Part shown: positions 48,266-51,140 of the stretch, piece by piece
How the letters are laid out: every line of letters starts with the position of its first letter
Position numbering within the stretch: the stretch's first letter is position 1
Assembly: GCF_024971095.1 (NCBI RefSeq)
Contig: NZ_CP069717.1
Coordinates: 2,418,001 to 2,482,000 of the forward strand
Direction: 5' to 3'
Source of the DNA: Microbacterium neungamense
GTDB lineage: Bacteria > Actinomycetota > Actinomycetes > Actinomycetales > Microbacteriaceae
DNA: 64,000 nucleotides
Program-made: the position numbers and the translations under genes
The notes under the pieces: model-generated
Databases searched by the model: none
What the model was told of the DNA's origin: nothing
Seen by the model: only the letters and a program-made list of their open reading frames with translations

Positions 48266-49333
48266 ATGGAGCAGGCGAGGACGAGGACGCGACGTCGCGC
48301 CGGTCTCGCCTCCGATCTCACCATCCTCGGCATCGTCGGGGTGCTACTGCTCGCCGCCATCGCCGCCGGCGGCCTCTCGCTGTACCGCGACTTCTACGGG
48401 CCGTCCGCCTTCGTCGAGCGCTATCTGGACCTGCTGTCGTCCGGACGGGCGGCGGACGCGCTGCGCGTGCCGGGCGTGGCCGTCGACCGCGCCGCGCTGG
48501 AGGAGAACGGGATCGACGGCGCCGCCTCCGAGGCCCTGCTGCGCCGCGCGGCTCTCGCCCCGCTGGACGACGTGGAGATCGTGTCGGAGACCGAACAGGA
48601 CGGCTCCTTCCTGGTCACCGCCGATTTCCGGGCGGGCGGCGCGAAGGGCCGCACCACGTTCACGGTGGTGCAGGACGGCTGGGTCGGCGTCACCCCGAAC
48701 TGGAGCTTCGCGGTGAGCCCGCTCGCCGAGGTCGAGCTGCGGCTGCGCGGCGCCGACCGCTTCGCCGTGAACGGCTTCGAGGTCGACCGGCGGCAGGTGT
48801 CGGCGCAGGGGGCGGATGCCGATCCGCTCGAGCCGCTGCATCTGCTGGTGTTCACGCCCGGCGTGTACTCGGTCACCGTGGACACCGCGATCTCGCACAC
48901 CCCCGGGGTGAAGGTGCTCGCCGACACGCCCCTGGCCCGCACTCCCGTGGAGGTGCAGGCGCAGCCCACGGAGGAGTTCCGCGAGGTGGTGCAGCAGCGG
49001 GTCGAGGAGTTCCTCGAGGGCTGCACCACGCAGGAGGTGCTGCAGCCGACCGCCTGTCCGTTCGGGCTCACCGTGCGCAACCGGATCGCTTCGCCGCCGA
49101 AGTGGTCCATCGTGCAGCATCCGACCGTGACCGTCGTGCCCGACGGCGCGAACTGGGCGATCCCGCCCGCCGACGCCGTGGCTCACATCGAGGTCGACAT
49201 CCAGTCCCTGTTCGACGGGTCGATCGATCACGTGTCCGAGGACGTGCCGTTCCGCATCAACGGGACGATCGCGATCCTCCCGGACGGGTCGGCGTCCATC
49301 CGGGTCGGGTCGCCGGACGTCGAGAGCGACTGA
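48266..49333 (+). CDS. Membrane-anchored extracytoplasmic protein, unknown function
   Basis: A 355-residue protein with an Arg-rich cytosolic tail (TRTRRRAGLASD), one membrane helix (LTILGIVGVLLLAAIAAGGL), then a large external domain: a YRDFYGPSAFVERYLDLLSSG helix bundle and repeated beta segments. Two Cys (CTTQEVLQPTAC) may form a disulphide. It resembles the mostly uncharacterised actinobacterial exported proteins near helicase or cell-wall genes; I do not recognise a family. The gene ends 8 bp before the structured IS110 left end, so the element may have inserted just after its stop. Confidence 0.75.
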   Translation: MEQARTRTRRRAGLASDLTILGIVGVLLLAAIAAGGLSLYRDFYGPSAFVERYLDLLSSGRAADALRVPGVAVDRAALEENGIDGAASEALLRRAALAPLDDVEIVSETEQDGSFLVTADFRAGGAKGRTTFTVVQDGWVGVTPNWSFAVSPLAEVELRLRGADRFAVNGFEVDRRQVSAQGADADPLEPLHLLVFTPGVYSVTVDTAISHTPGVKVLADTPLARTPVEVQAQPTEEFREVVQQRVEEFLEGCTTQEVLQPTACPFGLTVRNRIASPPKWSIVQHPTVTVVPDGANWAIPPADAVAHIEVDIQSLFDGSIDHVSEDVPFRINGTIAILPDGSASIRVGSPDVESD

Positions 49334-49340
49334 CAGTGAT

Positions 49341-49565
49341 GATGGTGGTGGGAGCCCCGCAGCGGTTGTCCTGACTCAGCGACTGACTGACTACGGGTCT
49401 TGAACGCGATCTGTCGTTCGATCGCTGCGGGGCTGCCATGCACTCACCGTGCGAGGGTTGTGACCTCATAGGAGCCTGTGCCAGCAGGCACCCATCACTG
49501 TCTTGTCCGCTCGCTCTCGGATGGTGCGTGCCGTCCGATCGGAGAGTTGAGAGGAAGGGACGGCG
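49341..49565 (+). ncRNA. Candidate IS110 bridge RNA region
   Basis: The non-coding left part forms two large hairpins. The first has a perfect 12-bp stem, AGCCCCGCAGCG (49353-49364) with CGCTGCGGGGCT (49423-49434), closing a 58-nt loop. A small GCCTG/CAGGC hairpin (49474-49489) follows. The third pairs GGCACCCATC (49487-49496) with GATGG and GTGCC (49520-49532), with a TGC bulge. In IS110-group elements such as IS621 the region upstream of the recombinase encodes a bridge RNA with target- and donor-binding loops. Length and position fit; transcription is not demonstrated. Confidence 0.6.
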
Positions 49566-50621
49566 ATGACCACCATCGCACGAGAAGAGCAGCAGGACCA
49601 GGTCATGATCGTGGCGGGTATCGACACGCATGGCGATTCCCACACCGCGGCGGTCATCGACACCACCGGCCGGCTGCTCGGGAGCGCGCAGTTCCCCGCG
49701 AATCGTTCCGGTTATGCCGCGTTGCTGAGTTGGGCGTGTGCGTTCGGTGTGCTCGTGATCGCGGGGATCGAGGGCACCGGCGCATACGGTGCCGGTCTTG
49801 CCCGTCACCTGCGCGCTGCGGGTGTCGAGCTGCGGGAAGTGGACCGACCGGACCGGAAGTCGCGGCGCTTTGCCGGTAAGTCCGACCCGCTGGACGCGGA
49901 AGCTGCCGCCCGGGCAGCGTTGGCAGGCACACGATCGGGGATCCCGAAGGACCGAGCAGGGAAGGTGGAAGCGCTCCGCAATCTGCGGATCGCCAGGCGC
50001 AGCGCCGTGACCCAGCGCGCCGACTGTCAACGCCGGATGAAGGCGATCATCGTCACCGCACCCGACGCGCTCCGCGAACGGTTGCGGGGGCTGTCAGACC
50101 GGGAGCTGATCGAGGTATGTGCCGCTGCACGTCCCGACACCACACGCGCCGACGAACCCGAGCAGGCATCGAAGATCGCGCTGCGCGCTCTCGCACGCCG
50201 CCACCAGTCGCTGACCGCCGAGATCGCCGAACTCGACGCACTCATCGACCCTCTCGTCGCGGACATCAACCCGCGGCTGCTCGCCCTCAACGGGGTCGGC
50301 GCCGATGTCGCCGGGCAACTGCTCGTCACCGCTGGCGAGAACCCCGGCCGGCTCCGTTCCGAAGCCGCATTCGCGATGCTCTGCGGCGTCGCGCCCATCC
50401 CCGCCTCATCAGGCAAAACCCACCGACACCGCCTCAACCGCGGCGGCGACCGCCACGCGAACGCCGCGCTCTACCGCATCGTGCTCTGCCGGCTCCGCTG
50501 GGATCCCAGAACCCGCGCTTACGCCGCCCGACGCACCACCGAGGGCCTCTCGAAGAAGGACATCATCCGCTGCCTCAAACGCCTCATCGCCCGCGAGATC
50601 TACACCGCCCTCACCACTTGA
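49566..50621 (+). CDS. IS110-family transposase/recombinase
   Basis: A 351-residue recombinase. The N-terminal RuvC-like DEDD domain has D20 in VAGIDTHGDSHTAAV, E69 in IEGTGAYG, and D107/D110 in GKSDPLDAEAAARAAL. A helical linker follows (about 125-230). The C-terminal Tnp_20 domain starts near NGVGADVAGQLLVTAG and has the catalytic Ser region in PASSGKTHRHRLNRGGDRHAN. Both domains appear intact, so the element may still be active. Start at ATG 49566, preceded by GAGGAAGG. Confidence 0.95.
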   Translation: MTTIAREEQQDQVMIVAGIDTHGDSHTAAVIDTTGRLLGSAQFPANRSGYAALLSWACAFGVLVIAGIEGTGAYGAGLARHLRAAGVELREVDRPDRKSRRFAGKSDPLDAEAAARAALAGTRSGIPKDRAGKVEALRNLRIARRSAVTQRADCQRRMKAIIVTAPDALRERLRGLSDRELIEVCAAARPDTTRADEPEQASKIALRALARRHQSLTAEIAELDALIDPLVADINPRLLALNGVGADVAGQLLVTAGENPGRLRSEAAFAMLCGVAPIPASSGKTHRHRLNRGGDRHANAALYRIVLCRLRWDPRTRAYAARRTTEGLSKKDIIRCLKRLIAREIYTALTT

Positions 50622-50686
50622 CATCCATAGGAGCATCGCACCCGGGCCGAGGCCGGGGCAGGGGCGCGGGCTCACGTCGCGAGTGG

Positions 50687-51140
50687 CTACTCCAAGTCTT
50701 CAGCAGCCAGCGTCTCAGGGAGCTTGTCTCCCTCCTCGAACGGACCGTGAACAAACATGCCGTCCTGCTGAGCGTAGATCCCGGCCGACCCTCCCGTGAC
50801 GTAGAAGTGGCCTGCTACCTCACCTTCCAGCATCGACGGTGTAAGGAACAACAGATAACGCTTCCCTTCCTCCAGGTAGGGGAAGGGCGCGACGTCTCCT
50901 GGAACACCCAACTGTCACACGATCACAGTGTCTCCGGAAACGGCGGGCGCTTCGGAAAGCGACGAAGCGAGGCTCGGGGGCTCGAAAGAGGTGATGACGG
51001 CCGCCGTTGACAGAGTCTCTCGAAACTTCCCATCGATGATGTTCTGGTCATCGATCTCCACCACACCGATGAAGGAGCTGGCGGCCGCAAGCGAGTCGAC
51101 GCTTTCGAACAGCTCGTGACGTGAACCTTCGTTGTGCGTC
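50687..51140 (-). pseudogene. Hypothetical protein gene with nonsense codon and lost 5' end
   Basis: The minus-strand frame reads HELFESVDSLAAASSFIGVVEI, then SEAPAVSGDTVIV, a TGA at 50915-50917, and continues in the same frame as QLGVPGDVAPFPYLEEGKRY and LLFLTPSMLEG to a stop at 50687. The two halves clearly belong together: one CGA-to-TGA-like change broke them. No start or N-terminal region is present; at about 51140 the frame meets the end of a secreted-protein remnant. I do not recognise the family, although the GKRYLLFL segment is common in exported hypothetical proteins. Codon use is less GC-rich than the surroundings. Confidence 0.65.

Follow-up and report, generated by a model that had tools for sequence, protein, structure and literature searches.

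A candidate bridge RNA and a one-base core in an IS110-group element of Microbacterium neungamense

The window analysed here, a 64-kb stretch of the Microbacterium neungamense genome, carries an IS110-group element whose recombinase gene is preceded by a strongly folded non-coding left end. Bridge recombinases are under study as programmable tools, and IS621 uses a core dinucleotide that is common to both of its DNAs. The locus raises the question of whether its left end encodes a guide RNA of this kind, which DNA the loops of such an RNA would read, and how much sequence donor and target have to share. The segment 49334-49565, in which an initial annotation made from the letters of the window had seen a candidate bridge RNA, extends from the crossover base through the base before the start codon of the recombinase.

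The element, its recombinase and its ends

The recombinase was described as intact in the initial annotation, and the protein of 351 aa (49566-50621) carries both family domains above their cut-offs: DEDD_Tnp_IS110 (PF01548) with 80.7 bits (cut-off 29) and Transposase_20 (PF02371) with 62.9 bits (cut-off 21.3). The family model NF033542 is matched with 162.7 bits (cut-off 140). Residues D20, E69, D107 and D110 and the serines S281/S282 are the same in the window protein as in 15 relatives throughout, and the four acidic residues and a serine are probably catalytic, named by analogy with D11, E60, D102, D105 and S241 of IS621 (PMC11208158). The spacing of the D-E-D-D residues is 49/38/3 here versus 49/42/3 in IS621. 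The closest named recombinase, from Microbacterium sp., is 88% identical. A profile search gave just two solved sequences at E up to 0.001, the transposase of ISCro4 (PDB 9t56, 9.7e-9) and that of IS621 (PDB 8wt6, 2.3e-8); both are distant, the matches cover parts of the chain, and no single stretch passes by itself. The gene leaves a non-coding left end of 231 bp and a non-coding right end of 16 bp. By its domains, its candidate left-end RNA and its short right end the element belongs to the IS110 group; the long right end with a guide RNA that marks the IS1111 group was not found in these 16 bp.

The genome, a single contig of 2.55 Mb, contains seven near-identical copies of the element in different flanks, which are the same over 49335-50630 save one base in one copy. 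One of them (L004) is nested in a second IS110 element, here called ISB, of which the genome holds six copies that are uninterrupted at that site. The uninterrupted copies give the empty site GGGACTGA-C-GCCGGCG, while in the filled site GGGACTGA-C-AGTGATG forms the left junction and GCAT-C-GCCGGCG the right one, with identical flanks over at least 131 bp to the left and at least 145 bp to the right of the crossover. Thus, the element spans 1303 bp (49335-50637), and a single base, C, is common to donor and target. Cores of CA and GA, which had first been considered from the ends of the copies and the guides, were ruled out by the empty site. The features of the locus are collected in Table 1.

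Table 1. Coordinates of the element, its predicted RNA and the adjoining target within the window
Feature	Position	Strand	Basis or remark
Left target GCGACTGA with crossover C at 49334	49326..49334	+	Genome sequence, not element
IS110-group element	49335..50637	+	1303 bp with the crossover C counted once; seven copies, empty site
Right donor AGTGATG, start of the element	49335..49341	+	Complement of 49493-49499
-10-like box GATGAT	49338..49343	+	Set near the -35-like box by circle formation alone
Predicted bridge RNA of about 183 nt (target loop, followed by donor loop)	49350..49532	+	Covariance model built without the window
Target-loop stem, 5' arm, 12-bp perfect part	49353..49364	+	Helix 1: 17 of 17 pairs changed on both sides in relatives
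Left target guide GCGACTGAC	49379..49387	+	Same letters as left target and core; guide-flank tests; nine positions including the core
Hairpin between target guides (GACU/GGUC)	49389..49399	+	Consensus fold, helix 3
Right target guide ACGCG	49404..49408	+	Complement of the right target C-GCG(T)
Target-loop handshake bases AT	49409..49410	+	Complement donor positions 7-8 (AT), not the target (GA)
Target-loop stem, 3' arm	49423..49434	+	Stem search, covariation
Left donor guide CATAGGAGC	49467..49475	+	Same letters as the right end, 50626-50634; direct reading and relatives
Hairpin between donor guides (GTGCC/GGCAC)	49478..49491	+	Direct reading; helix 7 covers the aligned part
Right donor guide CATCACTG (CATCACT, with G pairing the crossover C)	49493..49500	+	Complement of C-AGTGATG, 49334-49341
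Donor-loop handshake bases TC	49501..49502	+	Complement target positions 7-8 (GA), not the donor (AT)
IS110 recombinase, 351 aa, DEDD_Tnp_IS110 and Transposase_20	49566..50621	+	Domain searches
-35-like box TTGACA, overlapping the recombinase stop codon	50618..50623	+	Consensus match at the joined ends
Left donor CATAGGAGC at the right end	50626..50634	+	Copies, direct reading
Crossover C at the right junction, then right target GC	50637..50639	+	Copies and empty site

The L004 site in ISB is the only empty site that was read together with its filled partner; the sites found in relatives are unoccupied copies of the same motif. Such motifs are genomic repeats in Amycolatopsis sp. 2-2 (the genome of loci L071 and L072) and in Phytohabitans flavus (that of L048 and L050). 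The former contains 43 unoccupied copies of TTGAATGACTCATTCA, which likewise show the one-base form, and the halves at its two insertions read TTGAATGA-C and C-TCATTCA. The latter contains 122 matches to SGCGGAC-N{0,3}-ATCGCGGTAGC, none with an extra base among the matches listed, and GCGGA-C and C-ATCGCGGTAGC are found at its two insertions. In a third relative, Streptomyces sp. V4I2, the predicted empty site was looked for and not found. The search for empty sites that had been suggested at the outset was thus rewarded once in the element's own genome and, in two of these three relatives, by numerous unoccupied sites of the form predicted. In the genome of the window element, the core of the target, CGACTGACGC, occurs three times and a backward control four times; therefore, it is not a repeat there.

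Structure of the predicted RNA and the reading of its guides

A covariance model of the left end was built from 35 relatives, with the window element and the loci L010 and L011 left out. It matched 49350-49532 with 144.5 bits (E 1.8e-24), the sole match in the 64-kb window at E up to 1. In the relatives, 28 of the 43 pairs show changes on both sides and 94.4% of cells pair; the covariation score is 0.435, versus 0.184 +/- 0.009 for shuffled and at most 0.118 for slid alignments. These counts use the structure without six pairs that RNAalifold had placed on the donor guides (two such pairs were found in the alignment of 42 left ends and six in the next alignment). The consensus of the 42 left ends consists of a long first stem, an inner stem and a small hairpin, followed by a second module of the same plan, and it leaves the target guides unpaired. 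In the second, donor, module an outer stem encloses the guide at 49467-49475, a 5-bp hairpin (49478-49482/49487-49491) and the guide at 49493-49502. Taken singly, the left end folds at -114.6 kcal/mol versus -94.5 +/- 4.8 for its shuffles (z -4.2), and none of 200 shuffles is as low.

Much of what the initial annotation had said of this structure is borne out. The left end is strongly folded, the covariation that it had asked for in homologues is present, and its 12-bp perfect stem, which encloses a 58-nt loop, is correct to the base (49353-49364 paired with 49423-49434). The second stem that it had named, of 10 bp with a 23-nt loop, is absent: a search of 49334-49565 for perfect stems of 10-13 bp with loops of 3-69 nt gave the first stem and nothing else, and no stem of 9-11 bp that allows G-U pairs and has a 23-nt loop was found either. 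What forms the second module is the donor loop. There is also a 10-bp perfect inverted repeat at 49332-49341/49493-49502, with its arms 151 nt apart, in which the right donor guide matches the left junction. In the minimum-energy fold of the single sequence the left edge is paired to the right donor guide, a pairing that is absent from the consensus of relatives; that match is therefore taken as one of guide to donor, and the minimum-energy fold was set aside. The candidate bridge RNA as such is supported by the covariation and by the loop-to-flank matches given below, and its expression is a prediction.

An Rfam search gave no bridge RNA match, its only match in the window being a tRNA. The covariance model also matches distant relatives, down to a lower end at which ISB (29.8 bits) stands next to a spurious match (29.5 bits). 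At two loci (L055 and L074) the left end is partly duplicated in tandem, and at two others (L070 and L075) further insertions part the recombinase gene from the bridge RNA, which the model matches over its whole length.

The guides were compared with the flanks at 66 of 89 loci, the 89 comprising the seven own copies, two near relatives and 80 further loci. Loci were dropped where the left end or guides were not found or where the left end was interrupted or truncated, and L055, L057 and L116 were dropped by hand. Some loci represent the same place reached twice (e.g. L011/L054 and L070/L131), and identical guides were merged. As the boundaries came solely from the right donor guide, the tests of the target guides make no use of the letters tested; the left end having been chosen by its match to the right donor guide, that donor match is not independent. 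The left target guide matches its flank at 8.40 of 10 positions versus 5.65 when permuted (66 loci, 38 guides), a value reached by none of 5000 permutations. Counted outward from the C, the second to eighth positions were reached by none of the 5000, the first by 68 and the ninth by 3839; the tenth position of the guide, with the core counted in, was not above chance. Similarly, the right target guide matches at 4.63 of 8 positions versus 3.05 permuted (57 loci, 26 guides), again reached by none of 5000, and the first five bases after the C were reached by 0, 0, 4, 24 and 104 of the 5000 permutations. The right target guide matches over short stretches, and two of the element's own seven targets mismatch it at the base directly following the C.

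The same holds in a held-out set of 32 hits that were neither in the covariance model nor in the 66-locus test. Among these, 27 had a boundary and five lacked an acceptable one. The left guide matches at 5.93 of 9 positions versus 3.24 permuted (27 hits) and the right guide at 3.33 of 5 versus 1.48 (18 hits), both unreached in 5000 permutations. Six of the 27 match at two or fewer left positions, several of them being probably misplaced, and L159 is counted twice, as two hits.

The second loop repeats the ends of the element itself within the window: CATAGGAGC stands at 49467 and again at 50626, and CATCACT answers AGTGATG. In the relatives the ends were mostly located by donor-guide matches, and donor matches are thus not independent there. 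Both expectations of the initial annotation for the loops have been upheld: they can be read as target and donor guides, all four having been read, and the two target guides exceed every one of 5000 permutations in the main set and once more in the held-out hits.

The one-base core and the proposed pairing with the exchanged strand

With position numbers 8 and 9 following IS621 usage, a C stands at the crossover in 79 of 82 targets and in 71 of 72 donors. Among the 66 left junctions, 63 have A before the C and 3 have G, and the 58 right junctions that were read have T without exception; position 8 differs between target and donor in 71 of the 72 insertions with both ends read. All these insertion counts (66, 58, 72 and 82) take the copies one by one.

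The bases on the core side of the right guides fit the other DNA rather than their own. In the donor loop they fit the target at position 8 in 53 and at position 7 in 50 of 57 distinct guides, as against 2 and 7 that fit their own DNA. In the target loop they fit the donor at position 8 in 45 and at position 7 in 47 of the 49 guides whose right end was read, as against 1 and 5 for their own DNA. By permutation, the non-cognate pairing at position 7 was reached by none of 5000 in either loop. The pairing at position 8 was reached by two permutations for the donor loop; for the target loop every one of the 5000 reached it, and position 8 carries no covariation signal there. These permutations used 83 of 99 model hits, namely those with at least four of seven left guide-flank matches outside positions 7-9, a filter that favours correct boundaries; the other 16 were dropped for a poorly placed boundary. 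A spurious minus-strand hit (L065, 29.5 bits), removed later, is still in the permutation set and is out of the final counts.

Changes along the recombinase tree point the same way as far as they go, the test being limited by few changes. Targets with AA go with the guide TT in 6 of 6 guides, scattered over the tree, and all five independent pairs change in the same direction (p 0.0625). For G versus other bases there are seven pairs, with the same direction in 4.2 on average, never the opposite (median p 0.125). On the donor side one of three pairs changes in both and two do not differ (p 1).

In IS621 the core is CT; of its two positions 9 is the stricter, and top-strand cleavage falls directly behind it (PMC11208158). 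Pairing of the guide with the other DNA helps exchange and pairing with its own DNA blocks it, and natural covariation of this handshake kind has been reported at position 7 across IS110 orthologues (Hiraizumi et al., PMC11208158). The natural RNAs of the present clade show the helpful state of IS621 one position further in, up to the first core base. This extension to the first core base is new here, the pairing at position 7 having already been reported for IS110. No report of a one-base core was found in the open-licence literature, preprints and figures lying outside the search; Extended Data Fig. 10c of PMC11208160, which gives guides and cores of six diverse elements, ISAar29 among them, may already draw one.

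It might be argued that the RNA is a bridge RNA whose AT and TC are conserved to serve its structure or a contact with protein, not to fit the product, the differing base beside the C being tolerated by mismatch and repair. Both dinucleotides are nearly invariant across most of the clade, and the missing permutation signal at position 8 of the target loop and the p of 1 on the donor side of the tree would fit this view. So would IS621, whose first core base is less conserved and where other bases still work (PMC11208158). However, structure or contact would account poorly for a position 8 that differs between target and donor in nearly every insertion, or for a non-cognate pairing at position 7 that exceeds all permutations in both loops while cognate pairing is rare. 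Joint changes in scattered lineages, and the distant ISB, which carries GC for the target GC, also speak against it. We therefore consider this explanation rather unlikely, and prefer a pairing of these bases with the exchanged strand.

A second alternative, that the left end is a leader or attenuator of recombinase expression while protein-DNA contacts choose the target, would suit a strongly folded region directly upstream of the recombinase gene. It is, however, very improbable, as the loop letters change with the flanks between relatives, at nine positions on the left and about five on the right, the ends of the element recur in the second loop, and the target guides are unpaired in the consensus fold. 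Finally, that the matches are a by-product of misplaced ends (element counted as target) or of a common target motif is hardly credible: targets do resemble each other (CTGAC) and permuted guides share part of the match (5.65 of 10), but the empty site is seen in uninterrupted copies, identical copies have varied flanks, and the unlike targets AGCCACCAC-CTGGAC (L061), TTGAATGAC-TC (L071) and GCTGCTCGAC-CAGCGATG (L136) each fit their own guide.

A proposed insertion cycle and its relation to other elements

The reading that we prefer, and hold to be very probable, is that the left end encodes a two-loop bridge RNA of about 183 nt which reads the target and the joined ends of the element, that the two DNAs share a single C, and that the core-side bases fit the incoming strand. 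From the ends, the empty site, the covarying structure, the guide-flank matches, the shared C and the product-fitting bases, all of them read from DNA, we infer a cycle that is drawn in part by analogy with IS621. Excision would join the right end to the left end to give a circle, as in IS621, the way of excision being left open in PMC11208158. The circle would set a -35-like box 17 bp from a -10-like box and so drive the RNA. The first loop, with GCGACTGAC and ACGCG, would guide on the target, and the second loop, with CATAGGAGC and CATCACTG, on the joined ends of the element. The recombinase would cut both top strands just after the C and swap them, and AT of the first loop and TC of the second would pair with the incoming strand. 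Since the core-side bases complement the incoming strand, the swapped state would be held by more pairs than the starting state, which may bias the reaction towards insertion. Nature appears here to spend the positions beside a single shared base on pairing with the exchanged strand. With seven fresh copies, readable guides and known empty sites, the rules of the core, the direction and the excision are directly testable.

At the joined ends of the window element the putative promoter reads TTGACA-17-GATGAT, a consensus match given without a chance control. Likewise without a chance control, TTGACA or TTGACG is followed 17-18 bp on by GATGAT or GAGGAT in 33 of 36 distinct junctions; the first box of the other three is TTGAAA, TAGACA or TGGACA. 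In the integrated copy, no promoter-like or terminator-like site was found over 49280-50700. A start about seven bases after the -10-like box is predicted near 49350, where the match to the covariance model begins.

The window copy lies directly 3' of the stop codon of the open reading frame 48266-49333, whose TGA (49331-49333) falls within the left target. Among sites with a left target ending in TGA-C, 22 of 46 look like true gene ends, as against 51 of 1838 for TGAC, 30 of 542 for CTGAC and 10 of 50 for ACTGAC (p 0.005) in the flank controls. GACTGAC elsewhere in the flanks marks a gene end in 5 of 17 cases, with no difference from 22 of 46 (p 0.26), so that targeting of stop codons and survival of harmless insertions are inseparable here; selection against harmful insertions would yield the same excess of gene ends. 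A wider proposal, to which we give an even chance, is that the right guides of the clade pair the recombined junction, first core base included, better than their own substrate, that one shared base suffices, and that the RNA itself tips the exchange in favour of insertion, in many cases directly behind a stop codon. This would make a natural directional system whose choice of core is freer than that of IS621.

Several traits are shared with IS621 as described in PMC11208160 and PMC11208158: a recombinase with RuvC-like and Tnp domains, a guide RNA (here a predicted one) in the left end, and a target loop followed by a donor loop, each with a left guide, a hairpin and a right guide in the same strand order. 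IS621 forms a promoter at its joined ends, to which the consensus match at the joined ends would correspond here. A nine-base left target guide that includes the core, and core-side bases fitting the other DNA (the handshake), are also common to both. In contrast, IS621 has a CT dinucleotide core common to donor and target and paired by all four guides, where the present element has a single C, and its handshake involves positions 6-7 (with natural covariation at 7), as compared with 7-8 here. IS621 also has a 5' stem-loop before the target loop, for which the start predicted near 49350 would leave no room, and the left donor guide of the present element, unlike that of IS621, ends three bases short of the crossover base. 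Judged by these sequence comparisons, the system appears to work like IS621; it is not a strict IS621-type RNA, because the shared dinucleotide is absent.

The seekRNA of ISEc21 (PMC11187229) is similarly a guide RNA from an upstream non-coding region, with a bottom-strand match 5' of a top-strand match, and ISEc21 hits genes of other IS elements, as does copy L004 here. It differs in its target, and RNAs of 74 and 58 nt sufficed. The IS1111 group shares the recombinase superfamily and RNA-guided targeting (PMC11208160, PMC11187229), and differs in having its RNA in a long right end and subterminal inverted repeats, as against the short right end found here.

Two other IS110 elements were met with. 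At 7 of the 80 further loci (L049, L067, L073, L106, L107, L119 and L121), another IS110-family element lies reversed inside the left donor guide of the clade's bridge RNA gene; identity to the copy at L067 is 56-89%. Comparison with relatives that lack the interruption gives CT as the shared core of this element, as in IS621. The region upstream of the element at L073 and L107 contains GCAGGCTCCT and CTCATAG, matching the target CAGGCTC-CT-ATGAG, and the other five match less well. To judge from these matches, the L067-type element looks like a bridge-RNA element preying on other bridge RNAs.

The second, ISB (L039-L043), is a distant IS110 element with six copies in the genome of the window element. 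Its 29.8 bits are no better than the 29.5 of the spurious match, and ISB is therefore read from its guides, by which it follows the same rules: a left guide TTGAATCGCC, a right guide complementary to CCTGGG, handshake bases GC for the target GC, and a right end AT-C. Several ISB copies adjoin what we take to be the ends of IS3-type elements. Copy L004 of the window element interrupts the ISB recombinase gene, and two guide-RNA elements are thereby nested.
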